Shown here: piece after piece, positions 17,580 to 64,000 of the stretch
Numbering within the stretch: the stretch's first letter is position 1
Layout of the letters: every line of letters starts with the position of its first letter
Source: Bacteroidota bacterium
GTDB taxonomy: Bacteria; Bacteroidota; Bacteroidia; Chitinophagales; Chitinophagaceae
Reading direction: 5' to 3'
Assembly: GCA_016868455.1 (NCBI GenBank)
Contig: VGGV01000009.1
Span: forward strand, 1-64,000
Length of the DNA: 64,000 bases
Made by a program: the position numbers and the translations under genes
The notes under the pieces: generated by a model
Databases searched by the model: none
Told to the model about the DNA's origin: nothing
What the model saw: only the letters and a program-made list of their open reading frames with translations

Positions 17580-19418
17580 TTAAACGGCTTCTGCCTCCAT
17601 CTTCTTCTGTACCTTCTTCCGTTCTTCCTCATTCATTATCACTTTCCGCATACGCACAAAATTCGGAGTCACTTCAATACATTCGTCCTGCTGAATGTAT
17701 TCCATGCATTCTTCCAGTGTCATTAATGTTTTGGGGGCAATGTTGGTAGCCGCATCACTGCCACTGGCCCGCATATTGGTCAGTTTTTTCCCTTCAATTA
17801 CATTTACCACAAGGTCGCCGGGTTTTACGTTTTCAGCAACTATCTGCCCGGCATAAACTTCTTCTCCCGGGTCAATAAAAAAGGTGCCGCGGTCCTGCAG
17901 TTTATCAATGGAGTACCCGGTGGCTGTTCCGTTTTGTTTTGCAATCAGTACGCCGTTATTTCTTCCGGGTATCGGGCCTTTCCAGGGTTTGTATTCGGTA
18001 AACCGGTGGGCCATTACCGCTTCGCCGGTAGTTGCAGTTAGCATTTGCGTACGCAGGCCAATTAATCCTCTCGAGGGTATTTCAAATTCCAGGTGCTGCA
18101 TCTCCCCTTTGGTTTCCATCATATGTATTTCGCCTTTTCGTCTTGTAACAAGGTCAATCACCTTGCTGGCAAACTCCTGCGGCACATCCACCACCAGGTT
18201 TTCATAAGGTTCACATTTTACACCATTGATTTCTTTCACAATCACCTGCGGCTGGCCTACCGTTAATTCATATCCTTCCCGCCGCATCGTTTCTATTAAA
18301 ATACCCAAATGAAGAATGCCGCGGCCATAAACAATAAAACTGTCGCCGCCTTCACTGTCTTCTACCCTTAAGGCAAGGTTTTTTTCTGTTTCTTTCATCA
18401 GCCTGTCGCGGAGATGCCTTGATGTAACAAATTTTCCGTCTCTGCCGAAGAAAGGTGAGTTGTTGATGGAAAACAGCATGTTCATCGTAGGTTCATCCAC
18501 ACTGATAACGGGTAGCCCTTCGGGATTCTCAAAGTCGGCAATGGTATCCCCGATATTAAAATCTTCAATACCTACTACGGCACATAAATCACCTGCTGAA
18601 ACTTCATTTACCTTTTTCTTGCCCATGCCTTCAAACACATATAATTCCTTTACCCTTGACTTCTTCACCGTGCCATCGGCCTGAACCAAACTTACCGGCT
18701 GGTTTTCTTTAATAATGCCGCGACCTACCTTACCTACGGCTATCCTGCCAAGAAAGGAGGAATAATCCAGTGAAGTGATCTGCATCTGCAATGTACTAGC
18801 CTCCCCCTGGCCCCCTCCTTCTGAGAGGGAAACTTTTGGCGGAGGAACATATTTAATAATTCCATCCAGCAGCGGTTCTATATTATCAACCGGTGTCAGC
18901 GAATCGTTGAACCAGCCGTTTTTTCCCGAGCCATAAAAAGTAGGGAAGTTCAGTTGCTCTTCAGTTGCATCCAGGTTAAAGAATAAATCAAAAACCGCAT
19001 CATGCACTTCATCGGGCCGGCAGTTGGGTTTATCCACTTTATTGATAACAACAATCGGATGAAGATTTAACTGTAATGCTTTTTGCAAAACAAACCGTGT
19101 TTGCGGCATGGGGCCTTCAAAAGCATCCACCAGCAACAGTACGACATCTGCCATTTTCAGCACCCTTTCCACCTCACCGCCAAAGTCGGCGTGACCGGGA
19201 GTGTCAATCACATTGATCTTTACTCCTTTATATTCAACCGCAGCATTCTTGGAAAAAATGGTGATACCCCGTTCCCTTTCCAGATCATTGCTATCCATAA
19301 TGAGTTCACCGGTTTCCTGGTTTTCCCGGAATACCTTGGTGGCATGTAATATCTTATCTACCAGGGTGGTTTTTCCGTGGTCAACATGGGCTATAATCGC
19401 AATATTTCTGATCTCCAT
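17580..19418 (-). CDS. typA: translational GTPase TypA/BipA
   Basis: Ribosome-associated GTPase of the EF-G-like family, involved in ribosome assembly and stress adaptation. The 612-residue protein has G1 AHVDHGKT, the switch RERGITI, G3 [14 protein letters not shown] and G4 NKVD, then EF-G domain II, III and V and the TypA-specific C-terminal domain ending in a lysine-rich tail. All GTPase motifs are intact. Near residue 200 the linker before [13 protein letters not shown] carries an extra [12 protein letters not shown] segment encoded by a repeat-like GC-rich stretch (18800-18829). A promoter with TACCTTTG lies 80 bases upstream and a terminator follows. Confidence 0.96.
18800..18829. repeat. 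GC-rich repeat element inserted in frame in typA
   Basis: The plus strand carries a run of C-rich triplets (CCTCCCCCTGGCCCCCTCC) ending in TTCTGAGAGGG. It codes for the extra residues [12 protein letters not shown] between the G domain and domain II. The base composition is unlike the rest of typA, and the stretch resembles short repeats that are scattered between genes in many Bacteroidota (known from general experience, not checked here). Confidence 0.5.
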
Positions 19419-19420
19419 TT

Positions 19421-19476
19421 TTTAGCTTTTAGCTAGTAGCTGCAAACCGCCACCCAAAGGCTAAAAGCTTGCAGTT
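19421..19476. repeat. AGCTTTTAGC inverted repeat upstream of typA
   Basis: AGCTTTTAGC (19424-19433) is inverted at 19460-19469. The 14-mer TTTAGCTTTTAGCT at 19421-19434 occurs again exactly at 55333-55346, in front of actC. Here it lies 3 bases before the typA start codon, within its leader. Confidence 0.7.
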
Positions 19477-19498
19477 ATACGCTGTTTTTAACGAGCGG

Positions 19499-19530
19499 CA
19501 AAGGTATGGCAATTAAGCGGGGGCAGCAAA
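19499..19530 (-). promoter_or_regulatory. typA promoter
   Basis: On the minus strand TTTG (19530-19527) is followed after 20 bases by TACCTTTG (19506-19499), a full match to the Bacteroidota consensus. The predicted leader of about 75 bases includes the repeat at 19421-19476. Confidence 0.6.
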
Positions 19531-19604
19531 CGAAAGGGATATTAAATGATAATTGTTTACATTGAAAAACAGAGATTTAATGTAGTTTTAGCAAAACAGC
19601 TGGT

Positions 19605-20597
19605 ATGAGGTTTTTAAAATGGATTGGACTTGCCCTGTTATTATTGATTGTGGTTTACTTTTTAGGGCCTAAGCCTTCACATCCTAAATATAACAATGAA
19701 CTGTCTGCTGTTCCTGTTCAGCCGGCTGCACTGGATAGTTTTGTGGCAACACTGGAAGCAAAACATAAATTAAAACCCGACAATGAAGCAAGGATCATGT
19801 GGTTGAATGATACCGCCCGCCAGAAAACAGAATATGCTGTTGTTTACCTGCACGGCTTCAGTGCATCGCAGGAAGAAGGTGACCCGGTACATTATGAGTT
19901 TGCACAAAAGTTTGGATGTAATCTATACTTAAGCCGTTTGGATGCTCATGGGATAGACACAACAATACCGCTTGCCGGTTTTACTGCAGATGGTTTATGG
20001 AATTCTGCGAAAGAAGCTTATGCCATCGGAAAACAACTGGGCAATAAAGTGATCCTCTTGTCCACTTCCACGGGCGGCACCCTGGCGCTGAAACTGGCGG
20101 CTGAAAACCCGGATATTGCCGGGCTGATCCTGCTTTCTCCCAATATTGCCATCAATGATCCCAATGCATGGCTGCTGAACAATCCCTGGGGACTACAGAT
20201 TGCCCACCTGGTACAGGGCAAATACAGAAAAGTGTCAGACACCACTGCCATTTATGCCCAGTACTGGAACAACAGGTATGTTACCAAATCCCTTGTACAG
20301 CTTGAAGAGCTGCTCGAAACCACCATGAAGGAATCAACCTTCAGAAAAGTGAAGCAGCCTGTTCTGATGTTGTATTATTATAAAGATGAAAAGAACCAGG
20401 ACAAAGTGGTAAAGGTATCAGCCATGAAAAGGATGTTTCGCCAGCTGGGCACTCCTGAAAACCTGAAAAGAGAAGTGGCAGTACCCAATGCAGGCGATCA
20501 TGTCATTGGTTCTTATATAAAATCAAAGGATGTGGAAACTGTAATAACTGAATGTGAAAAGTTTGCCATGGATATCCTTAAAATGCAACAACAATAA
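19605..20597 (+). CDS. alpha/beta hydrolase, membrane-anchored
   Basis: A 330-residue serine hydrolase with one N-terminal hydrophobic helix (FLKWIGLALLLLIVVYFLG) that should anchor or export it. The oxyanion loop HGFSAS is at residues 83-88; the nucleophile elbow is STSTGG (S155 in the centre), with Ser in place of the usual first Gly of G-x-S-x-G; the catalytic His is probably in NAGDHVIGS near the C-terminus. This fits esterases/lipases of the Hydrolase_4 type. It starts a plus-strand group with 8 bases to the next gene. The substrate is not known. Confidence 0.8.
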   Translation: MRFLKWIGLALLLLIVVYFLGPKPSHPKYNNELSAVPVQPAALDSFVATLEAKHKLKPDNEARIMWLNDTARQKTEYAVVYLHGFSASQEEGDPVHYEFAQKFGCNLYLSRLDAHGIDTTIPLAGFTADGLWNSAKEAYAIGKQLGNKVILLSTSTGGTLALKLAAENPDIAGLILLSPNIAINDPNAWLLNNPWGLQIAHLVQGKYRKVSDTTAIYAQYWNNRYVTKSLVQLEELLETTMKESTFRKVKQPVLMLYYYKDEKNQDKVVKVSAMKRMFRQLGTPENLKREVAVPNAGDHVIGSYIKSKDVETVITECEKFAMDILKMQQQ

Positions 20598-20605
20598 AAA
20601 ATACC

Positions 20606-21973
20606 ATGCCTTCCAGTCTGTCACGCCGCGATGCGCTTAAGGCCATCAGTTTTGCTGCCGCTTCATTCCCTCTTTCTTCATGGGCCATGAATGAAAAAGG
20701 CGAACGGATTATTTTGCCGGATAACCCGCTGCATAAAAAAATGAAGAAGCCCGTTACTGCTATTACCTGCGGTGCAGGCGCAAGAGGAAATGTTTATGGA
20801 AACTATGCGGTTCAATATCCGGACCAACTGGATATTGTGGGTGTGGCCGAACCTATTCCTATCCGCATTCAGCGTTACAGCAAAAAACATAATATCCCGG
20901 AGGAAAACCAGTTCAAAACATGGGAAGATGTTTTTAAAAGACCCAAGTTTGCTGATGCTATCATCATCACCACACCGGATAACCTTCACTATGGCCCATG
21001 TATGGAAGCACTGAAGATGGGATATGATGTATTGCTTGAAAAACCCATCTCACCCAGCGAAAAAGAATGCCGGGATATTTTACAGCTTGCCAAAAAGAAT
21101 AACCGGATTGTGGCTGTTTGCCATGTGCTGCGTTATGCCCCATATTTTATCAAGTTAAGAGAACTGATGAACAGCGGTGCTATTGGCGAAGTAATCAGTG
21201 TACAGCACCTGGAACCCATCGGTCATGTGCACATGAGCCATTCTTATGTACGGGGCAACTGGCATAACAGTAAGCAAACTACTCCTATCATTTTGGCCAA
21301 ATCCTGCCATGATTTGGATATACTCAAATGGATGATCAATAAACCATCTAAAAAAATTCAGGCTTTTGGCGATTTGAAATGGTTTCGGAAAGAAAATGCA
21401 CCGGAAGGCAGTACAGCAAGATGTGCTGATGGTTGTAAAGTGGAAGCTGAATGTCCCTACTCGGCCCAGCGTATTTATTTCCAAAACAGGACCTGGACCT
21501 ATGTTTTTGATATGCCGGAAGATAAAAGCAAACACGGTGACCACATTTTAGAAAAATTAAAGACCACCAACTATGGCCGTTGTGTTTATCGTATGGAAAA
21601 CGATCAGCCCGACCATTACATCTGCAACATCCAGTTTGCAGATAATGTAACTGCCAGTTTTTCGATGGAAGCTTTTACTTCGTATGAAGGAAGAAGAACA
21701 AGGGTAATGGGCAGCATGTGTGATATTGTCGGTGATATGAATTCTTTTGTGCTGACCGACTTTCGTACGGGTAAAAAAACAGAATGGAAACAAAACAGCG
21801 ACGGACATGGCGGCGGCGACTGGCGGCTGGTGGCCGACTGGATACAGGCTGTTGATCAGCAAAACCCGGCTTTACTAACATCAACAATTGATGCCTCCAT
21901 TGAAAGCCATGTAATGGGCTTTGCGGCAGAGAAAAGCAGAAAAGAGAATAAGGTGGTGGAGGTGAGGATGTAA
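20606..21973 (+). CDS. Gfo/Idh/MocA oxidoreductase with secretion signal
   Basis: A 455-residue NAD(P)-binding oxidoreductase. The N-terminus MPSSLSRRDALKAISFAAASFPLSS has paired arginines and a hydrophobic stretch, like twin-arginine signals of this family. The Rossmann part follows (AITCGAGARGNVYG), with TTPDNLHY and the EKPIS motif of the Gfo/Idh/MocA family, then the C-terminal beta-sheet domain with the H-D-L-D-I helix. A cysteine group (ARCADGCKVEAECPYSA) sits in the middle, as seen in a subset of secreted members acting on sugars. Substrate unknown. It follows the hydrolase gene by 8 bases. Confidence 0.85.
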   Translation: MPSSLSRRDALKAISFAAASFPLSSWAMNEKGERIILPDNPLHKKMKKPVTAITCGAGARGNVYGNYAVQYPDQLDIVGVAEPIPIRIQRYSKKHNIPEENQFKTWEDVFKRPKFADAIIITTPDNLHYGPCMEALKMGYDVLLEKPISPSEKECRDILQLAKKNNRIVAVCHVLRYAPYFIKLRELMNSGAIGEVISVQHLEPIGHVHMSHSYVRGNWHNSKQTTPIILAKSCHDLDILKWMINKPSKKIQAFGDLKWFRKENAPEGSTARCADGCKVEAECPYSAQRIYFQNRTWTYVFDMPEDKSKHGDHILEKLKTTNYGRCVYRMENDQPDHYICNIQFADNVTASFSMEAFTSYEGRRTRVMGSMCDIVGDMNSFVLTDFRTGKKTEWKQNSDGHGGGDWRLVADWIQAVDQQNPALLTSTIDASIESHVMGFAAEKSRKENKVVEVRM

Positions 21974-22054
21974 AAGCCGAAAAATGCAATAGTTGTTTCC
22001 TGAAATAGTTTCATTTCCTGCCTATTTCCTATCTTCCTCGTTCAATTGCCTGCT

Positions 22055-23107
22055 ATGATTAGAAGCAAGATTGCTGGTATCGGCATGTATGTTCCTGCCA
22101 ATGTGGTTACCAATATCGACCTGATGAAATATATGGATACCACTGATGAGTGGATACAGGAACGTACCGGCATCAAAGAACGCCGGTATGCTCATCGCAC
22201 TAAAGAAACCACCACCACTATGGGTGTAGAAGCCGCTAAAATTGCAATTGAAAGGGCCGGCATTACCCCGAAGGATATTGATTTTATCGTTTTTGCCACG
22301 CTTTGCCCTGATTATTATTTTCCCGGATGCGGTGTATTGCTGCAGCGGGCCATGCAAATGAAAGAAATTGGCGCTTTGGATGTACGCAACCAGTGCAGTG
22401 GTTTTGTTTATGCCTTGAGTGTAGCCGATCAGTTCATTAAAACCGGTATGTATAAAAATATGCTGGTAGTTGGTTCAGAAAAACATTCTTTTGGTCTTGA
22501 TTTCAGCACAAGGGGAAGAAATGTAAGTGTAATATTTGGTGATGGCGCCGGGGCGGTGGTATTACAACCCACGGAAGATGAAAACCGCGGTATACTCAGC
22601 ACTCACCTACACAGCGATGGTACCAACGCAGAAATACTGGCCATGTACAATCCCGGAACACATGCCAATCACTGGGTGAACGGGCAAAAGCTGGCAGACT
22701 TTGATAACGCTGAAATCGGGCAAATGTTTTTCAGCCATTCCATGATTGATAAAGCACAGGTATTTCCGAATATGGATGGTCAGGCTGTATTTAAAGTAGC
22801 AGTAGAGAAATTTCCGGCAGTTATCAGAGAGTCGCTGGAAGCCAACAACCATCAAACATCTGACCTAAGACTTCTGATTCCACACCAGGCTAATTTGCGT
22901 ATTTCACAGTATGTCCAAAAGAAACTTGGACTGACTGACGACCAGGTTTACAACAATATTCAGAAATACGGAAACACTACGGCAGCCTCTGTCCCCATTG
23001 CCTTATGCGAAGCATGGGAAAACGGGTTGGTAAAAGAAGGCGATCTTATCTGCCTGGCTGCCTTCGGCAGTGGCTTTACCTGGGCCAGCGCCCTGCTCAG
23101 GTGGTAA
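22055..23107 (+). CDS. fabH: 3-oxoacyl-ACP synthase III (FabH-like)
   Basis: Condenses an acyl-CoA starter with malonyl-ACP to begin fatty-acid synthesis, or a related condensation. The 350-residue thiolase-fold protein carries the Cys-His-Asn triad: C114 in NQCSGF, the His of IPHQANLRI and the Asn of YGNTTAAS. The TGIKERR loop and GDGAGAVVL are also typical. The ATG at 22055 (MIRSKIAGIG) is preferred over a TTG three codons upstream. It is somewhat longer than E. coli FabH because of an insert around HWVNGQKLADFDN, which is common in the Bacteroidota paralogues; a role in a special lipid instead of the housekeeping step is possible. Confidence 0.88.
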   Translation: MIRSKIAGIGMYVPANVVTNIDLMKYMDTTDEWIQERTGIKERRYAHRTKETTTTMGVEAAKIAIERAGITPKDIDFIVFATLCPDYYFPGCGVLLQRAMQMKEIGALDVRNQCSGFVYALSVADQFIKTGMYKNMLVVGSEKHSFGLDFSTRGRNVSVIFGDGAGAVVLQPTEDENRGILSTHLHSDGTNAEILAMYNPGTHANHWVNGQKLADFDNAEIGQMFFSHSMIDKAQVFPNMDGQAVFKVAVEKFPAVIRESLEANNHQTSDLRLLIPHQANLRISQYVQKKLGLTDDQVYNNIQKYGNTTAASVPIALCEAWENGLVKEGDLICLAAFGSGFTWASALLRW

Positions 23108-23141
23108 ATTGTGTAATCCGGAGCCAACTTTCATCTCCAAT

Positions 23142-23161
23142 ATGCCATCATTAAATGGCAT
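23142..23161. promoter_or_regulatory. 7-bp inverted repeat after fabH
   Basis: ATGCCAT (23142-23148) and ATGGCAT (23155-23161) flank six bases. It lies 35 bases after the fabH stop and 22 before the next ATG, followed by an A/T-rich stretch. It could be a weak terminator or an operator of the small gene at 23184. Confidence 0.3.
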
Positions 23162-23183
23162 GATTATTTAATATTTTAGCAAC

Positions 23184-23600
23184 ATGAAGAAGCTACTTAC
23201 AATACTGACAATTATCTGCCTGGCTGAAACTGTTTCGGCACAGGACAGTTGGAAAGTAGTATTGCATAAGAAACTATTGCTTACCGGCAAAGGAGCGGAT
23301 GAAGAAAAAAATATAAAACTTATTAAATTATCTGAGTGGGAAAAAAGCGGTTACCTGGAAGTAAGTTACAAAGAAGAACAACCCTCTGCCTGGCTCCACT
23401 CCATCCGTTTTGCAGACGAACAAGGGAATGAACTGCTGGTCAAAGACAGTACAACCAGTACAAAGGTTTCTACCATTGCGCTCAGGAAAACTTTTTCGGG
23501 GAAAAAACAGGTGAAAATTTATATGGTAATCGCCCCTTCTGACCCCATGATAATGGCTCCTGCAAGACGAATACATCTGGCCACCCTGAAACTGCCTTAA
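23184..23600 (+). CDS. small secreted protein of unknown function
   Basis: A 138-residue protein with a Sec signal peptide (MKKLLTILTIICLAETVSAQ). The mature part is predicted to be mostly beta, with W-K-V-V-L-H-K-K-L-L near the start and a hydrophobic, Met/Pro-rich end. No family is recognised. It ends 3 bases before the lipid kinase gene, so the two are probably co-transcribed; a role in envelope or lipid homeostasis is only inferred from this. Confidence 0.65.
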   Translation: MKKLLTILTIICLAETVSAQDSWKVVLHKKLLLTGKGADEEKNIKLIKLSEWEKSGYLEVSYKEEQPSAWLHSIRFADEQGNELLVKDSTTSTKVSTIALRKTFSGKKQVKIYMVIAPSDPMIMAPARRIHLATLKLP

Positions 23601-23603
23601 GGC

Positions 23604-26777: not shown

Positions 26778-26825
26778 TAACAAGAAATGGTTGTTACCTA
26801 AAAATACTGATAATTGGCTGCTGTG

Positions 26826-27905: not shown

Positions 27906-27980
27906 TGCGGCAGCAAAGTTAGACCCCGTGTGCCGGAGGAAATAATTTTTGTTCAGCAATATTCATGAAATTGCAGTTGC

Positions 27981-28589: not shown

Positions 28590-28649
28590 TCCGCTGATTA
28601 AACCACAAGGACATCATGCCGTCTTATACCTGAGTTAAAATGAACAGTA

Positions 28650-28931: not shown

Positions 28932-28978
28932 AATCAGCACTCATCATATAAAGAAAGAATCCCGTGAAAATGGAAGGT

Positions 28979-29005
28979 ACCGCCGCAAAGGCGGTTTTCT
29001 TTTCC
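28979..29005 (+). terminator. intrinsic terminator
   Basis: ACCGCC (28979-28984), loop GCAAA, GGCGGT (28990-28995), then TTTCTTTTCC. It lies 48 bases after the stop of the basic secreted protein. Confidence 0.75.
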
Positions 29006-29083: not shown

Positions 29084-29971
29084 ATGCAGTTAAAGCCGGT
29101 AGCCACCTTTGACACCATTGAGCCTGAGGTGTTTAAAAAAGAGTTTTATGAACCCGGCGTACCCGTAGTTTTGAAAGGCCTTGCCCGTGAATGGCCCGCC
29201 TTTACCAGGTGGAACTGGGATTATTTTAAACAACTCATCGGTAGCAAAAGGGTCCCGCTTTACCACAATGAGAAAAGCGATGCCTATACCCCAATTAACA
29301 GGGCAGATGATTATAAGACCTTCGGGGAATATGTGGATATGATCAGGAAGGGGTCTGCCGCCTGGCGGATTTTCCTGTTTAATATTTTTGACCATGCCCC
29401 GCAGCTCCTGAACGATTTTACCTGGCCAGAGCATTTAATGAAAGGCTTTGTAAAAAAATACCCGATGCTTTTTACCGGAGGCGCCGGCAGCATCACCCAT
29501 ATGCATTTTGATATTGACCTTTCTCATATTTTCCATACCCAGTTTTGCGGCCGAAAAAAGGTGCTGATGTTTCCTTATAAAGAGCAGCATAAACTGTACC
29601 GCAAACCCTGGGAAGTGCTGAGTCTTGCTGATTTTTCCAACTATTATGTGGGAGGTAAAATTGATTATGAAAAATTCCCGGCTCTGAAATTGGCCGAAGG
29701 TCTTGATTTTACGCTGGAACACGGCGATACCTTATTTATGCCTGCCGGATACTGGCACCATATGGAATACCTGGAAAGCGGCTTTGCCATGAGCCTTCGT
29801 GCCATGCAGCCATCACTAAGCGGCAAATTAAGGGGCATGTGGAATTTATTCGCCATGAGAAATATTGATACCATGATGAAAAAAACGGCGCCCAAATGGT
29901 GGTATGGCAGAAAAGAAAAAAGGGTATTTGCCAATGCAAGCAAAGAAATGAAAAGCACTATGCCGGCTTAA
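29084..29971 (+). CDS. cupin-8/JmjC-type oxygenase
   Basis: A 295-residue Fe(II)/2-oxoglutarate-dependent oxygenase-like protein (cupin-8, JmjC fold). The start EFYEPGVPVVLKGLAREWPA is the family opening; the metal site is H141-x-D143 (HMHFDID) with the distal His in PAGYWHHMEYL near residue 224; FHTQFCGRKKVLMFPY lies between. Such proteins hydroxylate side chains of proteins or small molecules; the target is unknown. Nothing in the neighbourhood suggests one. Confidence 0.85.
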   Translation: MQLKPVATFDTIEPEVFKKEFYEPGVPVVLKGLAREWPAFTRWNWDYFKQLIGSKRVPLYHNEKSDAYTPINRADDYKTFGEYVDMIRKGSAAWRIFLFNIFDHAPQLLNDFTWPEHLMKGFVKKYPMLFTGGAGSITHMHFDIDLSHIFHTQFCGRKKVLMFPYKEQHKLYRKPWEVLSLADFSNYYVGGKIDYEKFPALKLAEGLDFTLEHGDTLFMPAGYWHHMEYLESGFAMSLRAMQPSLSGKLRGMWNLFAMRNIDTMMKKTAPKWWYGRKEKRVFANASKEMKSTMPA

Positions 29972-31542: not shown

Positions 31543-31577
31543 TAAATAAAAAGCCTTCCTGATTTTTCAGAAAGGCT
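31543..31577 (-). terminator. terminator of the candidate RNA
   Basis: AGCCTTCCTGA (31552-31562) pairs with TCAGAAAGGCT (31567-31577) with one G-T pair and a four-base loop. On the minus strand it is followed by TTTTTATTT. Confidence 0.8.
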
Positions 31578-31682
31578 CTGTTATGCTGTAGGGGGAGGGT
31601 TCGAACCTCCACGGAGCAGTTAGCCGCTGCACAAATTAGAAGAGAGAGTTACTCTCAGCCTACTGGTGGTCAACCCCAGTCG

Positions 31683-31700
31683 GTCCGCCCGTCGGCGGAT
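31683..31700. repeat. GTCCGCC-N4-GGCGGAT palindrome
   Basis: GTCCGCC, CGTC, GGCGGAT. The same two arms with a different core (AGCT) occur at 42313-42330 inside the AhpD-like gene. It forms one of the hairpins of the candidate RNA. Confidence 0.75.
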
Positions 31701-31754
31701 CGGCGTTATGCAGTGTTTATCCTGTGATCTCCACCCCCGAGACAAGGGGGCATG

Positions 31755-31805
31755 TCTGCCAGGCTTGCCCACCGAATTCTCGTTTGAAACGAGACGAAGG
31801 CGGGC
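31755..31805. repeat. long palindromic repeat inside the candidate RNA
   Basis: GCTTGCCCACCGAA (31763-31776) opens an imperfect hairpin closed by GAAGGCGGGC (31796-31805), with CTCGTTTGAAACGAG at the tip. The opening sequence matches, with one difference, the element in the lysS leader (1671-1684, minus strand). TCTGCCAGGC precedes it. Confidence 0.6.
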
Positions 31806-31880
31806 TTATGCCATTTCATCACCCCACATTATTGAAAAAACTTGTTTTAGCCATCCCGGCTTGAATCATGATTGATAGAA

Positions 31881-42046: not shown

Positions 42047-42124
42047 ACAGAATGATTTAGCCGGCTGAATATACAACAACCTCTTTGTTTCCCGCTTTGG
42101 CAAATGACAAACGGCCGTGTTTTC

Positions 42125-42132
42125 TACTTTTG
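42125..42132 (+). promoter_or_regulatory. -7 box upstream of the AhpD-like gene
   Basis: TACTTTTG matches TAnnTTTG, 18 bases before the ATG at 42151. The nearest TTTG (42096-42099) is 25 bases upstream, longer than usual. Confidence 0.3.
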
Positions 42133-42150
42133 ATACCTAAATTTTTTTCT

Positions 42151-42508
42151 ATGGGCAATCTTGCAAAAGAATTCAACGAATACCGAACTAAAATGAACGA
42201 GGTGATTCCTGGCAATGACAACCTGGTGCTCAAACGTCTCTGGAATCTTGACACCAATACGTATACCCCCGGGGCTCTTGATGTAAAGACCAAAGAGCTG
42301 CTGGGACTGGTTGTCCGCCAGCTGGCGGATGCTTCGCTGCGATGACTGCATTAAATACCACCTTGGCAAAAGCCATGAACTGGGAGTAACCACGGAACAG
42401 CTATATGAGGTATTTGCTGTAGCCAATATCGTTGGGGGCACCATTGTAATCCCGCACACCCGCCGGGCGGCTGAATACCGGGAAGAACTGCAAAATCAAG
42501 CTATTTAA
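42151..42508 (+). pseudogene. AhpD-like / carboxymuconolactone decarboxylase, disrupted by a palindrome
   Basis: Two overlapping frames make one protein. The first reads MGNLAKEFNEYRTKMNEVIPGND to KTKELLGLV; the second reads MLRCDDCIKYHLGKSHELGVT to AAEYREELQNQAI, with the CxxC and H-x3-H-type active site of the AhpD-like family (RCDDCIKYHLGKSHE). Between LLGLV (ends 42312) and the ATG at 42329 lie 16 bases, most of the palindrome GTCCGCCAGCTGGCGGAT (42313-42330). Sixteen is not a multiple of three, so the palindrome accounts for the frame change. A few residues normally present here (about ASMV) are missing. The gene should not give the full protein unless a ribosomal frameshift occurs. Confidence 0.7.
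42313..42330. repeat. GTCCGCC-N4-GGCGGAT palindrome inside a gene
   Basis: GTCCGCC, AGCT, GGCGGAT. The arms are identical to those at 31683-31700 in the candidate RNA. It splits the AhpD-like gene. Confidence 0.75.
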
Positions 42509-48016: not shown

Positions 48017-48260
48017 ATGTACCCGGTACCTGTACTGCTACCCGCCTGCTGGCTGGCAGGTCAGCTTCGTTGCCTCGCTCCCGATAGCTACCGGGATACT
48101 TCCTGTTCTCTATTCATCAACGTTGAACCACTTCGGGGTTCCTCAAATAATCTTTCCATTTTATCTCTCCGGGTTTCATCCGGGGCTACCCATATTTAGC
48201 CCCTTGGGGGCATTAAGAACTTATCAAAATTTCATGCTTCCCCCACTCACCATTCACTAC
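48017..48260. repeat. composite repeat region between coxA and ctaB
   Basis: The gap holds several short palindromes in sequence: GCTGGCTGGCAGG-like bases near 48046, CTCCCGATAGCTACCGGGAT near 48088, a GAACCACTTCGGGGTTC hairpin near 48124, and CCGGGTTTCATCCGGGG near 48167 with TAGCCCCTTGGGG near 48197. These look like several dispersed Bacteroidota repeat units placed side by side (family memberships not checked). No protein frame is plausible. Confidence 0.6.
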
Positions 48261-53194: not shown

Positions 53195-53212
53195 TATCAG
53201 TTTATTATACTA

Positions 53213-53809: not shown

Positions 53810-53870
53810 AATTAATAAAATATCAAATCATAAATTCAAATTCCCCATTTAACAATAAAGCAATTAACCT

Positions 53871-55325: not shown

Positions 55326-55330
55326 AAGTT

Positions 55331-55370
55331 AGTTTAGCTTTTAGCTGTTAGCTTCTAGCCTCGAGCTTTT
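55331..55370. repeat. AGCTTTTAGCT repeat upstream of actC
   Basis: TTTAGCTTTTAGCT at 55333-55346 is identical to 19421-19434 in the typA leader; both are a few bases before the start codon of a minus-strand gene. Further short AGCT-type copies follow (TTAGCTTCTAGCC). Confidence 0.65.
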
Positions 55371-55378
55371 ATTATCTA

Positions 55379-58300: not shown

Positions 58301-58570
58301 TGCCACTCCCGGTACCAGGTTTTCTGGTTTATTGGCATAGGGGATTGCTTTGCGGACAGGTATTTTACAGCTTGCGGCCAAAGTGGCGGCAGCGGTGCTG
58401 AAGCCGAGGTATTTCAGGAAGTCGCGGCGTGGGGCTTTTGCATCCACCAGCCCTTTATCATCAAAACCCTCAAATGGCAGTTCATCATGAAACTCATCTT
58501 TGGAGAATTTATGCAGATTCTCCGGGTCGTTTACTTCTGCGAAATTTTGCCAGTACTTGTTTTGGCTCAT
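55379..58570 (-). CDS. actB: ACIII subunit ActB (molybdopterin-like/iron-sulfur fusion)
   Basis: A 1063-residue periplasmic subunit. A twin-arginine-like signal (RRDFLK, residues 48-53) and a Cys at 68 come first. Residues 90-760 resemble molybdopterin oxidoreductases, which in ACIII do not bind the cofactor. Residues 780-1000 are a four-cluster iron-sulfur domain, with Cys runs CNGCGACVVAC, CQHCDNAPCENVC, CIGTRYCAQNC and CSFCVQK, and ACQTACPTSA. Electrons pass from quinol through these clusters to ActA. The C-terminus is rich in His, Glu and Lys. Confidence 0.94.
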   Translation of the reverse strand: MSQNKYWQNFAEVNDPENLHKFSKDEFHDELPFEGFDDKGLVDAKAPRRDFLKYLGFSTAAATLAASCKIPVRKAIPYANKPENLVPGVAKYYATTYVQDGDVVPVVAKVRDGRPIKIEGNELYAATGGGTSARAQASVLDLYDMYRTRYPMHKVKDKFEEIPSFEQTDKLVGEAMKAAGGQTVLLTSTVVSPSAKEIIGKFPGLRHVQYDAVSYSGMLLANEASGFGRKIPSYNFGTTQVIVSLGADFLGTWLSPVEFARGYAQGRKIKDEKNPVMSKHYQFESYLSMTGSNADERFTHRPSEAAAVALDLLNAINGTEGAVTLTGPLEAAIKKVAAELNAHKGEALVVCGSNDKNVQVIVNAINNAIGAYGTTINWSIPVNYRQGIDSEFEQLLADMETGTVGTVMIYGANPAYTYYHAERFKTALKKVKLIVSFNEKMDETTELCEYVIPNHHYLESWGDAEPCAGCTSFMQPTIYPLFKTRPYQTSLLKWSGDTRDYETYFKEYWIGKLGSEEAFNKALQDGVKEDTQPAASAGSYSSAAVAKTAAAIAAYKKTSGAEVVLYQKVSMGTGAQAGNPWLQELPDPVSKATWDNYAIISIKKAEELGIKLDNDYEYFPHKPVIELTVGKNKMDLPVLVFPGMNADTIAVAVGYGRNKAMGVTADGVGKNGYPLATFNGTTVDYYATGATATNLQKKYKIAQTQKHNSYEHRNEVVRETTLAAFKKHPNIIPDYNKHLRDAFYNKSGGNFRSNATLYPDPNRRQYEIHWGMSIDMNACNGCGACVVACHAENNVPVVGKSEVLRYHDMHWLRIDRYFVSDEKDPDNLKAVVFQPMLCQHCDNAPCENVCPVAATNHSTEGINQMAYNRCIGTRYCAQNCPYKVRRFNWADYNGTDSFPNNRDQKLVGKLDPVIEQMNDGLTRMVLNPDVTVRSRGVIEKCSFCVQKIQAAKLDAKKENRMLKDGDVKTACQTACPTSAIVFGNAVDKESVVARINEENKLRSFHVLELLHVLPNITYMAKIRNTDEEDANWAGEHGAEEHKDAGHDKKEDHMPAATKPEETH

Positions 58571-58605
58571 AACTCTTGCTTATGTAATAATTTGAAATGG
58601 TACAA

Positions 58606-59880
58606 TCAGTAGTGACATTTCTGGCACTCCAGACCGCCGATATGTTCTACCGTTACACTATCCATTTTCCCGTTCTTTATATCATTATGAAACTTTTCAT
58701 AAATACTGTAAAACTTGTTGCCTTTGCCGGCTGTATAGTTAAAGTCAACTTTGGTCTGGCGGTGGCAGTTCACACACCAGCCCATGCTCAGTTCGCTTAC
58801 CTGTTTTACTTCATCCATTGCGGTTATTTCGCCATGACAGCTCTGGCACTGTACTTTACCGGTCCGCACATGCTGTGAATGGTTAAAGTATACATAATCG
58901 GGCAGGTTATGGATTTTTATCCATTCAATGGGTTTGGATTTGGAAGGGTTCCATACACTGGGGTTCTTGGGGTCAAACCCGGCATATTTATACAGCTTTT
59001 CTATCTCGGCTGTGCCATTGATCTCATCTCCGTTTTCATCATAAAGTTTGGGTCCTTTTTCATAAGTGCTGATAGCTTTATGGCAGTTCATGCACACATT
59101 TACAGAAGGGATAGCGGCATGCTTGCTGTCCCAGGCTGACCCGTGGCAGTATAAGCAGTTAATCTGGTTGATGCCGGCATGCACTTTATGCGAATAATAA
59201 ATTGGTTGCTCCGGCTGATAATTTTTCTGACGGCCCAGGCCGATGGCGCCTTTGGTAACATAGTACCCGCCCACTACAAACAGGAGAATGGAAAACAGGG
59301 TGATGTATACTTTGTTTTTGTAAAAAGGAACCGGATCGGGCCGCATGATGCCTTCCGCATCATCGCTCATCTTTTTCAGGTTGCTGTTAATCTGCATTAA
59401 TATCAAAGCAATGATGGCGAGGATGAGCGAGATGACGCCGAAGATAACAGCGTTTGGGTTGGATTTTTTATCCCCAGTTGCCGTATCACCCTCAGGTTTT
59501 TTTCCACCACCGGGGCCGGCTGCATATGTCTTATTAATGTAATCCCAAATGGCATCTATTTCTGCATCTTTCAGATCCGGAAATGATAACATAACCGAGC
59601 CATATTTGGATTTTAGATCCGAATAGTATGGATCTGAGCTTGCCATACTTGCTGCATTTCTAATCCACTGGTAAGTTTTTTTTGTATCGCCCCCGTATTG
59701 ATCTTTATCCAGGACCTCGCCCAATTTGGGGCCGGTCAGATCTTTGAACACATTGTGACAACTGGCGCACTTGCTCATAAACAGAGCCTTTCCATCCTGG
59801 GCCCAGATATTCACAACTGAAACAATAAAAAAAGAGATAAGAAAGATTACACGCCGGCCTGTTGGTTTACAAGGAATCAT
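58606..59880 (-). CDS. actA: ACIII subunit ActA, six-heme cytochrome c
   Basis: The ATG at 59880 (MIPCKPTGRR) gives a 424-residue protein: signal segment (VIFLISFFIVSVVNIWAQ), a mono-heme cytochrome c domain with CASCH, a linker rich in Gly/Lys, a transmembrane helix (AVIFGVISLILAIIALILMQI), a second helix, and the pentaheme part with CLYCH, CMNCH, CQSCH, CVNCH and CQKCH. Canonical ActA has five hemes, so the extra N-terminal domain makes six. It starts the operon; 27 codons before the chosen ATG in the same frame are not used. Confidence 0.93.
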   Translation of the reverse strand: MIPCKPTGRRVIFLISFFIVSVVNIWAQDGKALFMSKCASCHNVFKDLTGPKLGEVLDKDQYGGDTKKTYQWIRNAASMASSDPYYSDLKSKYGSVMLSFPDLKDAEIDAIWDYINKTYAAGPGGGKKPEGDTATGDKKSNPNAVIFGVISLILAIIALILMQINSNLKKMSDDAEGIMRPDPVPFYKNKVYITLFSILLFVVGGYYVTKGAIGLGRQKNYQPEQPIYYSHKVHAGINQINCLYCHGSAWDSKHAAIPSVNVCMNCHKAISTYEKGPKLYDENGDEINGTAEIEKLYKYAGFDPKNPSVWNPSKSKPIEWIKIHNLPDYVYFNHSQHVRTGKVQCQSCHGEITAMDEVKQVSELSMGWCVNCHRQTKVDFNYTAGKGNKFYSIYEKFHNDIKNGKMDSVTVEHIGGLECQKCHY

Positions 59881-59928
59881 AGCAGAAGTTGATTCAAAAA
59901 ATTGTGGATAAAATCCGTTAACCAGCCG

Positions 59929-59936
59929 CAAAAGTA
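59929..59936 (-). promoter_or_regulatory. -7 box of the act-cox operon
   Basis: On the minus strand TACTTTTG, followed by CGG, matches TAnnTTTG and lies 48 bases before the actA start. The -33 position is T-rich but lacks TTTG, so the promoter is only partly supported. Confidence 0.4.
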
Positions 59937-60173
59937 AGTCAGGAACAGTATAAAAATTCATCTGGTTTAACTTTTTTTGGATCCGCTACCAGCCTGCATT
60001 TCAGCGGATTTGCACGGGCTCTTTGCAAGGCAGGAAATCTCTTTGTCACAAATCGGTAATACCTGTAAAAAACTTTAGCGAAGCTTTCAATAAATACTTT
60101 TTCTGCATTTTTTTCCCGCACTTTTGCAGCCATCTGCGGTGCCCGGTTTAAAATAGTAACATCCTCTCAGCCG

Positions 60174-60488
60174 ATGTTTGAACGTCTTCAAAAAAAATGG
60201 AAAGTAAACAGCCTGCAACTGGCGCTGATCCTCTGCACATTCGCCATCGGCGGCAGCCTTACTGGTTTTGCAGGCAAAAAAATCATGAACGTCCTGCCGG
60301 TGCAGCAGGACTGGCTTTGGGCCATCATTTACATTTTGCTGATAACAATTTTGTGGCCAATGGTAGTAATGCTGGTGAGCATACCTTTCGGGCAGTTCTC
60401 GTTTTTTAAAAAATACATCCGCAAAATTGGTGTGAAGGTGGGAGTGGTGAAGCCTGAGGCCGGAAGCCGGAAGTCAGAAGAGTCTTAG
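60174..60488 (+). CDS. DUF6787 membrane protein
   Basis: A 104-residue protein starting MFERLQKKWKVNSLQLALIL, which matches the DUF6787 family. Two helices (LILCTFAIGGSLTGFAG and WAIIYILLITILWPMVVMLV) and the FGQFSFFKKYIRK segment. The function is unknown. The last nine residues (EAGSRKSEES) come from a GCCGGAAG-type repeat, so the natural end may differ in relatives. Confidence 0.7.
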   Translation: MFERLQKKWKVNSLQLALILCTFAIGGSLTGFAGKKIMNVLPVQQDWLWAIIYILLITILWPMVVMLVSIPFGQFSFFKKYIRKIGVKVGVVKPEAGSRKSEES

Positions 60489-60536
60489 TATGCGAAATCA
60501 TATTGGTCAAAAAGTCATAATAAGTCATTCGTAACT

Positions 60537-61439
60537 TTATTTCATACGCTTCAGTTCTGCTTCTGCAGCAATATAACCAAAGGAGCTCCATTGGTTTCCG
60601 TTAAGTATCTGCTTAAATACTTTTTTTGCTTCTTCCGGTTTCTTATTGCTGAGCAGGTACAGGCCGGCTCCAAAACCAAAAGAAGCGCTGCTCAGGTCTT
60701 TTTTATCCGGCAGGTACTGCATTGCTTTTTCACCAGGAATATTTTGTTTGTACAGCATCAGGATTTCATGATAATCCTTATTCTCCACCAGCTCCATATC
60801 CGCGGAAATAGTCGTCAGCAGGTCATCGGCTTCTTTTAACCTGTTCAGTTTTCGAAGGGTTATGTACAGCCAGTTGGCTGTTGCCACATACATATCGTTA
60901 TTGGTTGATACTGCAAGACATTCCCGGTATGCCTTCAGCGCCTTTTTAAACCCGCCTTTTACAAAATAAGCCAGCCCCAGGTGATACCAGATATTGGATT
61001 GAAGAGTGCTTGTGGGAATATTTTTTGCATTGGGCAATCCGTCCGGTTCGGTTTCATCCTGTTTCCCGTTTGTCAGTTTCCCTGCTTTTTTAAAATCAGC
61101 TATGGCGGCATCAAAGCATCGCAGGGTAATGTAGCGGTGTCCACGGTGACGGTACATACGGGCATCGGCGGGATGAAGTGAAATACCCCTGCTGAAAATT
61201 TCAATTGCTTTATCGTATTGCCCAAGATATGCTTTCCGTCTGCCCAGCCAGATGATATTATCAGCATTCGCACTGTCATTCCGGTAATTATTTTCCGCTT
61301 CGGCAAGTTTTGCTTCGTGATTTTTACGGGTCGCTTCACTTAATTCGGGCCGGGGAAAAGCTTTTCCCAATAAACAGTTTTGTTGTGCCGCCGAAGAAAG
61401 CGAAAATAAAAGTGTTCCGGTAATAAAATAAAAAAGCAT
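60537..61439 (-). CDS. secreted TPR-repeat protein
   Basis: A 300-residue protein with a signal peptide (MLFYFITGTLLFSLSSAAQQ) and several tetratricopeptide repeats (for example IWLGRRKAYLGQYDKAIEIFSRGISLHPADARMY and RGHRYITLRCFDAAIADFKKAG; WYHLGLAYFVKGGFKKALKAYREC). Probably a periplasmic scaffold for protein interactions; partner unknown. It is divergent from purN, with start codons 37 bases apart. Confidence 0.8.
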   Translation of the reverse strand: MLFYFITGTLLFSLSSAAQQNCLLGKAFPRPELSEATRKNHEAKLAEAENNYRNDSANADNIIWLGRRKAYLGQYDKAIEIFSRGISLHPADARMYRHRGHRYITLRCFDAAIADFKKAGKLTNGKQDETEPDGLPNAKNIPTSTLQSNIWYHLGLAYFVKGGFKKALKAYRECLAVSTNNDMYVATANWLYITLRKLNRLKEADDLLTTISADMELVENKDYHEILMLYKQNIPGEKAMQYLPDKKDLSSASFGFGAGLYLLSNKKPEEAKKVFKQILNGNQWSSFGYIAAEAELKRMK

Positions 61440-61476
61440 GGCGAAAAGTTACAACTTTGCTGCTTCAGAAATCAAA

Positions 61477-62061
61477 ATGAAGAAAATCGCCATATTCGCT
61501 TCCGGTGCGGGGTCAAATGCAAAAAACATTATCCTCACCCTTAACACCTCTCCACTGCGTGGAGCGGGTAGAAGCGGTGAGGTTACCCTTATTGTGTGCA
61601 ATAAACCAGGCGCCGGTGTTTTAAAAATTGCAGAAGAAAATAAAATACCAGCACTGCTGATTGAAAAAGAAAAATTTTTCCGGGGAAATGCTTATGTGGA
61701 TGAACTGAAAGCAGCCGGTATTGATTTTATTGTGCTGGCCGGTTTTCTCTGGAAGGTGCCGCCCGCTTTAATTAAGGCTTACCCTCAAAAAATCATCAAC
61801 ATTCATCCCGCCTTATTGCCAAAATACGGCGGCAAGGGCATGTACGGCCATCATGTGCACCAGGCGGTGATTGACAACAGGGAAAAAGAAAGTGGCATCA
61901 CCATTCACTTCGTTGATGAACTGTACGACCATGGCAAAATTATCTTCCAGGCCACCTGTCCCGTGCTTGAAAATGATACTGCCGGCTCGCTGGCGCAGCG
62001 GGTTCATACATTGGAACATGAATATTATCCTAAAGTGATTGAGGAATTGGTTATTGGTTAA
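61477..62061 (+). CDS. purN: phosphoribosylglycinamide formyltransferase
   Basis: Transfers a formyl group from 10-formyl-tetrahydrofolate to GAR in purine synthesis. The ATG at 61477 gives a 194-residue protein with ASGAGSNAKN (phosphate loop), VCNKPGAGVLKIA, the catalytic site INIHPALLPKYGGKGMYG (Asn/His pair) and SGITIHFVDELYDHGKII with the catalytic Asp. Upstream codons (61438) are in the TPR gene start and not used. Where related PurN proteins have about ten residues between NII and V-A-L-I-V, this one has about sixteen, coded by a palindromic element (61533-61582). Confidence 0.93.
   Translation: MKKIAIFASGAGSNAKNIILTLNTSPLRGAGRSGEVTLIVCNKPGAGVLKIAEENKIPALLIEKEKFFRGNAYVDELKAAGIDFIVLAGFLWKVPPALIKAYPQKIINIHPALLPKYGGKGMYGHHVHQAVIDNREKESGITIHFVDELYDHGKIIFQATCPVLENDTAGSLAQRVHTLEHEYYPKVIEELVIG
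61533..61582. repeat. palindromic element in frame inside purN
   Basis: CCTCACC (61533-61539) and GGTGAGG (61576-61582) form the outer arms, CTCCAC (61550-61555) and GTGGAG (61559-61564) the inner hairpin. It codes for LTLNTSPLRGAGRSGEV and resembles a dispersed repeat that is frequent between genes in related bacteria (family knowledge, not checked). Confidence 0.7.
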
Positions 62062-62164
62062 CTAAGGGATTAAGTTTTTGGATGATACTTCCTCCAATCA
62101 CCAATTAACCAAACCCCCAATTAACCTCCCATTTGCATTTTCTTTTGTTACTTGCCTGCCTTAG

Positions 62165-62920
62165 TTGATATACCAAAGCACCATATGGATCATCATCACT
62201 CTTTTAATGGCGATAACCGCCAACGGACAGCTGTATAAAATAAGAGGAGCCGTTTACGACAGCAGCTGCAACTATCCGCTTGAGGCAGTGAGTGTGCTCA
62301 GCACATCCGGTAAAGGCACTTCCACCAACGCCGAGGGAAAATATGAAATAGAGGTGAGTGAAAAAGATTCCATCTGGTTCAGCTACCTGGGCAAACCTAC
62401 CATCAAATTTCCTGTAGCCACCATTCAAAACACACAGCAGTTTGATATTTCACTGCACATTAATATCCCCACGCTTAAAGAAGTGAAAATAAGACCGCGG
62501 AACTACCGGCAGGACTCCATTCAGAACCGGGAAGACTACGCCAAAATTTTCAACTACCAGAAGCCGAAACTGAAAGTGGCGCCAGCCCAATATGGCGCCG
62601 GTGTGGGCTTCGACCTGCAGGAGATCATCAATATGTTCCGCTTTAAAAGAAACAGGAGCATGGCAGGTTTTCAAAAACGGCTCCTGCAGCAGGAAGAGGA
62701 TAAATTTATTGACTACCGGTTTAGCAAGGGGCTGGTGCGCCGGCTTACTTTGCTTACCGGCAATGAACTCGACAGCTTTATGCGGCACTACCGCCCATCT
62801 TACACTTTTACTAAGTTTGCCAGCGACTATGATTTTCAGCTTTACATCAAAAAGGCCTTTGTACGTTTTCAGAACGGGCTTCCGCCGCTTCCTTTTCTGA
62901 AAGAAGAGGAGGAAGAATAG
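62165..62920 (+). CDS. secreted protein with carboxypeptidase-regulatory-like domain
   Basis: A 251-residue protein: signal segment (STIWIIITLLMAITANGQ), a carboxypeptidase regulatory-like beta-sandwich (residues 22-100, IRGAVYDSSCNYPLEAVSVL, with STNAEGKYEIEV), then a helical/charged region with no known family, ending in acidic residues (LKEEEEE). The only start that keeps the whole signal is TTG at 62165; an ATG at 62207 would shorten it. A lost upstream base is possible. Such proteins occur in Bacteroidota at the cell surface; role unknown. Confidence 0.65.
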   Translation: MIYQSTIWIIITLLMAITANGQLYKIRGAVYDSSCNYPLEAVSVLSTSGKGTSTNAEGKYEIEVSEKDSIWFSYLGKPTIKFPVATIQNTQQFDISLHINIPTLKEVKIRPRNYRQDSIQNREDYAKIFNYQKPKLKVAPAQYGAGVGFDLQEIINMFRFKRNRSMAGFQKRLLQQEEDKFIDYRFSKGLVRRLTLLTGNELDSFMRHYRPSYTFTKFASDYDFQLYIKKAFVRFQNGLPPLPFLKEEEEE

Positions 62921-62963
62921 CTGGTAGTGTATCCGTTTCGAAATTTGTTGCCCTAATGTTTAA

Positions 62964-63044
62964 TTTCACGCAAAGACGCAAAGAAAATAAGCCGCTTAGA
63001 ATAAATCCTTTGCGCCTTTGCCTGCTTAGCGTCTTTGCGTGAAA
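62964..63044. repeat. 81-bp inverted repeat (CGCAAAGACGC type)
   Basis: TTTCACGCAAAGACGC (62964-62979) is exactly inverted at 63029-63044 (GCGTCTTTGCGTGAAA). Between them are further CGCAAAG-like words (CTTTGCGCCTTTGC). It lies in the gap between two plus-strand genes and is of the type that is repeated in many Bacteroidota genomes. Confidence 0.8.
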
Positions 63045-63169
63045 AAAATTCAAACTGAGGCACTACCGAATAGATTTCTCGCTTCGTCAATTCAAAAAAG
63101 AAAACTAATTTCCCTGTTCTGCGCACCCTCAGAAACAAATTTTTCAATCATTTATTTAAACCCCCTGCA

Positions 63170-64000
63170 ATGAAGAAAATTTTTTCTGTTTTTGCCTCCC
63201 TCCTGCTGCTGCTGCCTGCTTTTTCTCAAAATGATATTCCTCCTTCATTTTTAAAAGACAGCCTTGACAGCTACATTACCAATGCCATCAAAGAATGGCA
63301 AATACCCGGCGTGGCCGTTTGCGTTGTCAAAGATGGAAAAGTGGTGGTGATGAAGGGCTATGGCGTAAAAGAAACGGGGACAGATGACCGGGTGGATGAG
63401 AATACTTTGTTCATGATTGGCAGTAATACCAAAGCATTTACCGCCACAGCCCTTGCGATGCTCGAAACAGAAAACCTGCCTGCCGGCCTGTCTGCCGACA
63501 AGGCAGGCAAAACAGAAAAATTTTCGCTAGATGACAGGGTACAGAAATGGCTGCCCGGTTTTAAGCTCTATGACCCCTGGGTGGCCAACGAAGCAAACAT
63601 CCGGGATTTATTATGCCACCGGCTTGGTTTTGAAACTTTCCAGGGGGATTTTATGTTTTTCGATTCCGACCTTACTGCACAGCAGGTGTTTGAAAAGTTT
63701 GCGCAAGTAAAACCGCTTTACAGTTTCCGCAGCAAATGGGGTTATACTAATGCAGCCTTTGGCGTGGCCGGTGAGGTAGTCAGCAACGTTTCCGGCAAAA
63801 CATGGGCGGAATTTATCACGGAGAAAATTTTCCTGCCGCTGGGTATGAACAACAGCCTGGCATTGTCAAAAGACATTAAGACGGCAACCAATAAAGCAAC
63901 GGCACATACTGTTGTGATGGGTGAGCTGCGGAAAATACCTTATGGCAATATTGACAACATATCGCCGGCAGGCAGCATTTCCTCTTCGGTAAATGATATG
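63170..64000 (+). CDS. serine hydrolase, beta-lactamase fold (partial)
   Basis: Runs off the window, so only the first 277 codons are seen. It has a signal peptide (MKKIFSVFASLLLLLPAFSQ) and the class C beta-lactamase / penicillin-binding-protein-like fold: the S-x-x-K nucleophile in IGSNTKAFTATALA and the Y-x-N in WGYTNAAFGVAG, with the later PLGM segment. Members are esterases, D-aminopeptidases or peptidases rather than true beta-lactamases. Between ALAMLETE and FSLDDRVQKWLPGF the residues NLPAGLSADKAGKTEK are extra; they are coded by a palindromic element (63478-63508). Confidence 0.88.
   Translation, partial: MKKIFSVFASLLLLLPAFSQNDIPPSFLKDSLDSYITNAIKEWQIPGVAVCVVKDGKVVVMKGYGVKETGTDDRVDENTLFMIGSNTKAFTATALAMLETENLPAGLSADKAGKTEKFSLDDRVQKWLPGFKLYDPWVANEANIRDLLCHRLGFETFQGDFMFFDSDLTAQQVFEKFAQVKPLYSFRSKWGYTNAAFGVAGEVVSNVSGKTWAEFITEKIFLPLGMNNSLALSKDIKTATNKATAHTVVMGELRKIPYGNIDNISPAGSISSSVNDM
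63478..63508. repeat. palindromic element in frame inside the serine hydrolase
   Basis: GCCTGCC (63478-63484) is inverted by GGCAGGC (63502-63508), with CTGTCTGCCGACA between. The stretch codes for PAGLSADKAG and belongs to the CCTGTCTGCC type of repeat seen also, in part, near 31755 (TCTGCCAGGC). Confidence 0.65.

Follow-up and report, generated by a model that had tools for sequence, protein, structure and literature searches.

Small dispersed repeats of Nostoc were reportedly described by Elhai and others in 2008, and they are said to be 21-27 nt long, hairpin forming, nested, and often found inside heptamer tandem repeats. Rickettsia palindromic elements are presented, in PMC2229807 and PMC10969869, as rickettsial repeats of about 105-150 bp that lie in frame inside conserved protein genes and also occur in the RNase P RNA and the transfer-messenger RNA (tmRNA), and a paper cited in these reviews presents palindromes that code for protein, in its title, as unique to Rickettsia but recurrent there. 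Small dispersed repeats are also named in PMC3116915. In this work, a window of 64,000 nucleotides was analysed, which is the whole stretch from position 1 to 64,000 of contig VGGV01000009.1 (assembly GCA_016868455.1; part of contig C9 in our numbering) of a Bacteroidota bacterium of the family Chitinophagaceae, whose genome comprises 2.64 Mb in 64 contigs. A previous inspection of this DNA, hereafter the sequence-only reading, had pointed to GC-rich palindromic stretches in typA, an AhpD-like gene, purN, a serine hydrolase gene and a candidate RNA, and all five were read as it stated. These stretches are very probably copies of tiny dispersed palindromes that carry no gene and were inserted at many unrelated places.

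The stretches sort into several palindromic repeat families, of which at least three were distinguished: F1 with its longer cousin F1b, F2, and F3. F1 corresponds to GCCTCCCCCTGACCCCCTCC followed by GGAGG(A)GGGGGA, and F1b starts with CCTCACCCC, both spanning about 30-50 bp; F2 is TCCGCCNNNNGGCGGA, with 16-18 bp; and F3, of about 20 bp, is a perfect palindrome near CCTGCCTGCCGGCAGGCAGG. When the whole genome was searched, F2 was found at 15 exact places and F3 at 87 places (up to two mismatches, overlapping registers included), and the reversed controls of both gave 0. F2 and F3 are therefore multi-copy, and the objection that the stretches might be single-copy, which the sequence-only reading had raised against itself, did not hold. 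F1 occurred at four exact places, all in frame within genes (typA, purH, miaB and paaC), where it encodes S(x)(x)SGGG(Q/R)GEA or LPLPPS, and a looser search added copies in the gene for the DNA polymerase III delta' subunit and near the starts of PxpA/LamB and SDR-like genes. Copies can also be nested, since F3 was found inside F1b twice and once inside F4, another hairpin repeat. As a separate observation, F4, a CTCCTTCGCTAAAGCTACGGAGG-like repeat seen in RNase P RNA and elsewhere, occupied 10 distinct places in the collected loci (control 0; F3 nested at L145), and F5, a TCATCCTGAGC..TCGAAGGA-like repeat, occupied 7 (control 0); F4/F5 repeats were noticed at L399, L400, L401, L403 and L145.

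The three protein cases that had been claimed to be in frame were found in typA, purN and the hydrolase gene, the AhpD-like case being out of frame. The typA/bipA gene (17580..19418, minus strand, 612 aa), recognised by Pfam and by alignment with an E. coli-type BipA, harbors an F1 element at 18799..18830 on the same strand. In a comparison in which 58 genomes were searched and 30 loci were read, the nine extra residues of this protein were absent from 29/29 orthologues, which have forms of VPPPKVNEGPLQM instead, with a net gain of 27 nt relative to the nearest relative. The predicted structure of TypA was poor (mean pLDDT 61.7, pTM 0.52), and the insert, residues 198-207, appeared as coil below 50, which is little informative. 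The purN gene (61438..62061, plus strand, 207 aa; Pfam) carries at 61533..61582, on the plus strand, an F1b element of 50 nt that forms an imperfect hairpin where relatives have a shorter loop; of 30 loci, 28 could be aligned, the own one included, and the PurN of this genome was 6-7 residues longer than all 27 aligned orthologues. Thus, the extra residues were missing from the orthologues of TypA and PurN when the alignments proposed by the sequence-only reading were made, and the refuting condition that this reading had set, orthologues of several genera with the same residues, failed. In the serine hydrolase gene (63170..64000, plus strand; PF00144 fold by Pfam), which continues beyond the window end, a composite F3-type element at 63475..63508 (plus strand) encodes the peptide NLPAGLSADKAGK and accounts for approximately 14 extra residues relative to PDB chain 7spn_A. 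The AhpD-like gene region of the CMD family (42085..42505, plus strand, start approximate) is broken by an F2 element at 42313..42331 on the plus strand, with 19 nt in place of 12 in relatives, so that the frame is shifted by one and the downstream frame runs from 42329 to 42505. AhpD matches were found in 25/58 genomes, and among the 12 loci read, GLVASMVLRCDDC was present in 10; in genome G177, a different hairpin lies in frame at the same place.

Folding against 200 shuffles supported hairpins in the AhpD-like gene (z -4.2), purN (-4.8), the hydrolase gene (-3.5) and both parts of the candidate RNA (-2.6 and -4.4), and revealed no unusual hairpin in the typA stretch (z 0.75). Over the whole window, perfect inverted repeats were not in excess (5 versus 0-6 in eight shuffles), and the argument therefore depends on how often the stretches recur in the genome and on the comparison with orthologues. 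One perfect 9-bp inverted repeat, CGCAGACAG..CTGTCTGCG, was seen within an open reading frame at 8549-8573.

Copies inside the reading frame were found across the genome. Thirteen genes of this genome carry one (typA, purN, purH, miaB, paaC, delta', S9 peptidase, yggS, queA, tilS, mutL, murF-alr and the hydrolase gene), and four more (PxpA/LamB, SDR, Fe-S_biosyn and trpS) have a copy at the N-terminal edge, in which the true start may lie past the copy. The products named by Pfam were PaaC, DNA polymerase III delta', Fe-S_biosyn, S9 peptidase, QueA, TilS, TrpS, MutL, MurF-Alr and PxpA/LamB. Relative to solved homologues, extra residues were counted in PurH (+9), MiaB (+6), YggS (+5) and QueA (+6, at a second, variant site); for TilS, the PDB alignment stopped short of the insert. 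In records of Patescibacteria, F3 was found in frame in genes for Obg, a Mur ligase, chorismate synthase, a class I tRNA synthetase and a pseudouridine synthase, and a viral contig (L467) has an in-frame F1 in its gene for a primase of the DnaG type. The LPxGRQ frame was used by 17/20 genes with a Pfam-named product, a count that excluded the scanned L231, which had no Pfam match, and the flagged, unscanned L218, L227, L250, L265 and L281.

Copies were also recognised in genes for structured RNAs. In the RNase P RNA of this genome (a 454-nt match), F3 lies in the first variable stem, an F1b and another F3 are also present, and a further F1b stands at the 3' edge; the measured part of this RNA ranged from 289 to 427 nt in 40 genomes of the genus. 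A loose F1-F4 match, with 2-3 mismatches at most and no control, was found in the RNase P RNA of 11 of these 40, at varying helices, and in G174 and G150 an F5 hairpin, TCATCCTGAG..TCGAAGGA, was seen by eye. The tmRNA match (L177, C14:49166-49564) was scanned for F1-F3, and none was found; it was observed that this match has 399 nt, compared with about 371 in many relatives, and contains extra hairpin-like stretches. In the intergenic candidate RNA of the window, the F2 core TCCGCCCGTCGGCGGA at 31684..31699 (no strand assigned) matches the F2 pattern and is a true repeat, and a strong hairpin, supported by folding, occupies 31755..31805 on the minus strand, with arms that resemble F4 by eye only. 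The identity of the region 31550-31830 as an RNA remains that of a candidate, in which no Rfam family was found above chance. By eye, its minus strand has strong hairpins, a T-arm-like motif and a terminator-like end. That it could be the tmRNA was ruled out, since the tmRNA sits on contig C14.

The F3 repeat is not restricted to this organism. Identical copies of its 22-mer were present in at least 116 genome-contig stretches, with about 0.015 expected by chance from uniform bases. Eighty of these stretches were listed and used for the taxa and for the depletion in genes, and the remaining 36 were added for the analyses of empty sites, GIY-YIG genes and stems. Among the matches listed were Bacteroidota, many Patescibacteria, Planctomycetes, Nitrospirota and metagenome-assembled genomes of Desulfobacteraceae, as well as the isolates Dokdonia pacifica, Winogradskyella echinorum, Maribacter halichondriae and Terrimonas sp. 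The F3 20-mer occurred in 33 viral-contig stretches, in which two composition-matched control palindromes gave 0 and 0, and F3 with one mismatch was found in 23/42 genomes of the genus, with controls of 0 throughout. Only 2/17 genus genomes of up to 2.1 Mb had F3, and none of the 17 had a Y1_Tnp match; it looks as if these streamlined lineages had purged small repeats. F2 was found in 52/147 genomes of the family, mostly in 1-4 copies, with higher numbers in G086 (23), G071 (22), the genome studied here (15), G074 (10) and G100 (6). Beyond this genome, F3 lies mostly outside genes, and it was depleted in genes when 14/83 sites were compared with 243/390 shifted control positions in the same loci (p 3e-14), which makes the in-gene survivors look selected. 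Selection likely filters inserts in genes, although the data give the pattern only.

The boundaries of F3 were examined by an empty-site test, in which the joined flanks of 223 distinct F3 sites were sought in the same locus, with 0-15 duplicated or 1-12 lost bases and four mismatches allowed. Matches were obtained at 21 of the 223 sites, compared with none for re-dealt flanks, and 15 of the 21 corresponded to a clean insert of 20 bp with no duplicated and no lost bases (L430 equally with 7). Two former readings, a 5-bp duplication around the F3 22-mer and then a 7-bp duplication around the 20-mer, were displaced by these tests. No target duplication was detected at 44 F2 sites, and 7-bp repeats were found at 0/25 F3 copies of the genus. 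Regarding the targets, 10/183 F3 sites were enclosed by stems of at least 7 bp, relative to 1.3 for re-dealt flanks (maximum 5) and 1.5 for random positions, three of the ten being from one locus and two having common flanks; this excess indicates that hairpin loops may be preferred targets. In the viral locus L437, the joined flanks read as a whole tRNA-Met, a situation found once among the 223 sites. Insertion of F3 into functional tRNA-Leu genes was considered and rejected, since the cases read lie in partial copies beside an intact tRNA.

Some results weigh against the view that the stretches are dispersed elements inserted as discrete units. Counts gave no excess of F1, with four exact places compared with four for the reversed control, 10 compared with 10 for a looser pattern, and four distinct places compared with six in 419 collected loci; repetition of F1 is not established by counts alone, the reversed F1 pattern being itself contained in the F1 element, which makes it a poor control. 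The boundaries are not clean in three proteins: about 29-32 nt of the old loop of PurN are gone if the whole 50 nt are the element, the AhpD-like gene lost 12 nt, and in a Daviesbacterium, Obg is not appreciably longer than usual despite the F3 within. At six of the 21 sites with an empty-site match, two 14-bp direct repeats enclose the site and its own right flank provides the match, as expected from heptamer arrays or a misread duplication, and direct repeats of 7 bp (at least 6/7 identical) surrounded 14/149 F3 sites (compared with 0.59, and at most 3, under the null), peaks being seen at 14 and 21 as well. These peaks point to heptamer arrays, and insertion between array units fits them; heptamer-like flanks were seen at 6/81 F3 sites and at 11/525 non-gene positions, and true duplication may also have occurred at some F3 sites. 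In addition, the F3 copies of TilS and TrpS recur at the same positions in G168, which indicates that some copies are inherited or old. The LPxGRQ frame was used by 8 of 14 flagged loci as they stand (p 0.06), and broken genes were under-counted because the in-gene counts were taken from open reading frames. Finally, no movement was observed and no copying enzyme was identified.

How such elements would be copied was considered in terms of candidate enzymes. One proposal, which the tests did not support and which we regard as rather unlikely, is that they are repetitive extragenic palindromic (REP)-type elements moved by Y1 (RAYT/IS200-like) transposases, which would insert single-stranded hairpins without target duplication. 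The lack of target duplication at most F3 sites agrees with the behaviour of this class, and F3 and Y1_Tnp are associated in the 42 genus genomes (16 with both, 7 with F3 only, 2 with Y1 only and 17 with neither; p 1.4e-4), 18 of which have Y1 transposase genes. However, in the 25 genomes above 2.5 Mb the association was not significant (p 0.55; rank correlation 0.36, p 0.08), G173 has 17 F3 places and no Y1 match, and, among 32 Y1 loci read, a clear F3 stood beside only one (L117), with other palindromes, such as CAACCCC..GGGGTTG, at 23 and none at eight. The Y1 genes at L113, L114, L115, L119 and L124 were seen to be flanked by palindrome arrays of their own, for example CAACCCCGAAGGGGTTG and CGAGACTACAAGTCTCG, in a REP/RAYT-like manner. 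Another doubtful proposal, of similar standing, is that small stand-alone GIY-YIG nucleases, acting at the loops of tRNAs and other hairpins, install the palindromes or move together with them. The excess of stem-enclosed sites agrees with it, and so does the arrangement of several loci: a partial tRNA with F3, a GIY-YIG gene and an intact tRNA follow each other at L363, L375, L376, L393 and L302; at L443, the GIY-YIG gene lies between a partial tRNA with F3 and a second tRNA 5' part, with no tRNA called; and at L277 (F3) and L342 (F2), an intact tRNA and a GIY-YIG gene precede a 3' part carrying the palindrome. At the seven F3 loci among these, F3 occupies the D-loop or T-loop of the partial tRNA copy, 34-69 bp from the GIY-YIG gene, and PF01541 was found in all five proteins scanned (L376, L393, L342, L245 and L443). 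A GIY-YIG gene lay within 600 bp of 8/130 genome-contig F3 sites, compared with 15/1120 random positions (p 0.0014), and the distance was 34-69 bp in 8 of 13 F3 cases. Nevertheless, these 13 cases came from 231 F3 sites (130 in set A, 48 in B, 35 in C and 18 in the own genome, where none was found), only 1/48 F2 sites had such a neighbour, and in short genus loci random positions were near a GIY-YIG gene as often as F3 (37/320 and 4/35), the values for random positions in the four sets being 15/1120, 2/330, 37/320 and 0/350. At L245, moreover, two partial copies with F3 are upstream of an intact tRNA-Leu and the GIY-YIG gene is beyond that tRNA, and tRNA remnants may be mere neutral landing places. 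In the own genome, locus L028 has an intact tRNA-Gly and, next to it, a partial one that contains F2, and the stretch between them resembles, by eye only, the tail of a GIY-YIG gene. The layout of L363, L375, L376, L393, L302, L443, L245, L277 and L342 is reminiscent of a mobile GIY-YIG cassette that would insert into tRNA genes and restore them.

Two other explanations dispense with movement. Local origin by template switching or quasi-palindrome correction, with the likeness between copies due to convergence, would account for the different hairpins that two genomes have at the same spot of the AhpD-like gene, for the native GCCAGC kept inside the own palindrome, and for the nearly usual length of Obg. 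However, the same 20-22 letters recur across phyla, the two matched control palindromes are absent from viral contigs, clean 20-bp inserts stand alongside an empty copy, and copies are nested, all of which speaks against local origin for F3 and leaves this explanation quite improbable. Ordinary variation in loop length, or assembly error, is hardly credible: the AhpD frameshift could be such an error, but repeated DNA at unrelated loci, with control counts of zero for F2 and F3, and placement in frame are not expected from it. Dispersed elements inserted at unrelated places thus remain the preferred explanation, and the view that a small spreading element makes new protein loops agrees with the multi-copy state of F2 and F3 and with inserts that orthologues lack.

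Two other features of the window matched the patterns loosely, namely an F3-like palindrome between open reading frames at 48042..48059 (one mismatch to the loose pattern) and an F2-like palindrome at 29354..29369 (one mismatch), neither assigned to a strand.

Compared with described systems, these elements resemble Rickettsia palindromic elements in being palindromes that lie in frame in conserved genes, are missing from orthologues and also enter structured RNA genes. The likeness to Rickettsia that had been proposed for this window thus stood for the behaviour, including the copies in RNase P RNA, and failed for the size, 16-50 bp here compared with 105-150 bp; likewise, the repeats are palindromic, as that proposal held, but the single element it envisaged was replaced by at least three families, one of which, F3, spans phyla and elsewhere lies mostly outside genes. 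With the small dispersed repeats of Nostoc, F3 has in common its 20 bp, hairpin formation, nesting and some heptamer-like flanks, whereas those repeats are cyanobacterial and are not known as in-frame protein inserts. REP/REPIN sequences with RAYT are also short hairpins; unlike them, F3 lacks a GTAG or CGTC tag and is beside a Y1 gene at 1/32 loci. Miniature inverted-repeat transposable elements are small, gene-less and dispersed as well, but in F3 the two arms adjoin each other and make up the whole element, and no constant target duplication is seen. The closest kinds are therefore the Rickettsia elements and the small dispersed repeats, and the present elements are assigned to neither: size and taxon differ from the former, and the likeness to the latter is one of size, nesting and heptamer setting. 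In the partial texts returned by an open-licence literature search, no description was recognised as these elements.

The elements could be copied blindly as hairpins, relying on a host enzyme or on one that belongs to another mobile element. As the inserts are without stops in nearly all frames, a copy in a surface loop could survive, provided that bases gained or lost at its ends make the net change divisible by three, and it would then add a short loop, such as LPAGRQ or SxxSGGGQGEA; a benefit to the host would not be necessary for the spread. Since 20 is not a multiple of three, a surviving in-gene copy needs a compensating gain or loss, which agrees with the scarcity of F3 in genes, with the partly replaced sequence in PurN, AhpD and Obg, and with the shifted frame of AhpD. 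A tentative, rather improbable extension is that a 20-bp palindrome shared by Bacteroidota, Patescibacteria, Planctomycetes and others is the unit of spread and has moved between phyla, placed by small GIY-YIG nucleases or another hairpin-inserting enzyme into the loops of tRNA genes and hairpins without target duplication, and that, within genes, it repeatedly gives rise to new protein loops and RNA stems. With its 20 bp and mostly clean insertion, the element is short and well enough defined for tests of how repeats of this kind spread. Such elements would also account for odd loops in environmental proteins, such as LPAGRQ, and species-specific stems of RNase P RNA, loops and stems that otherwise, when unrecognised, mislead annotation and structure work. 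The protein-coding palindrome behaviour of Rickettsia is now seen in a member of the Bacteroidota.

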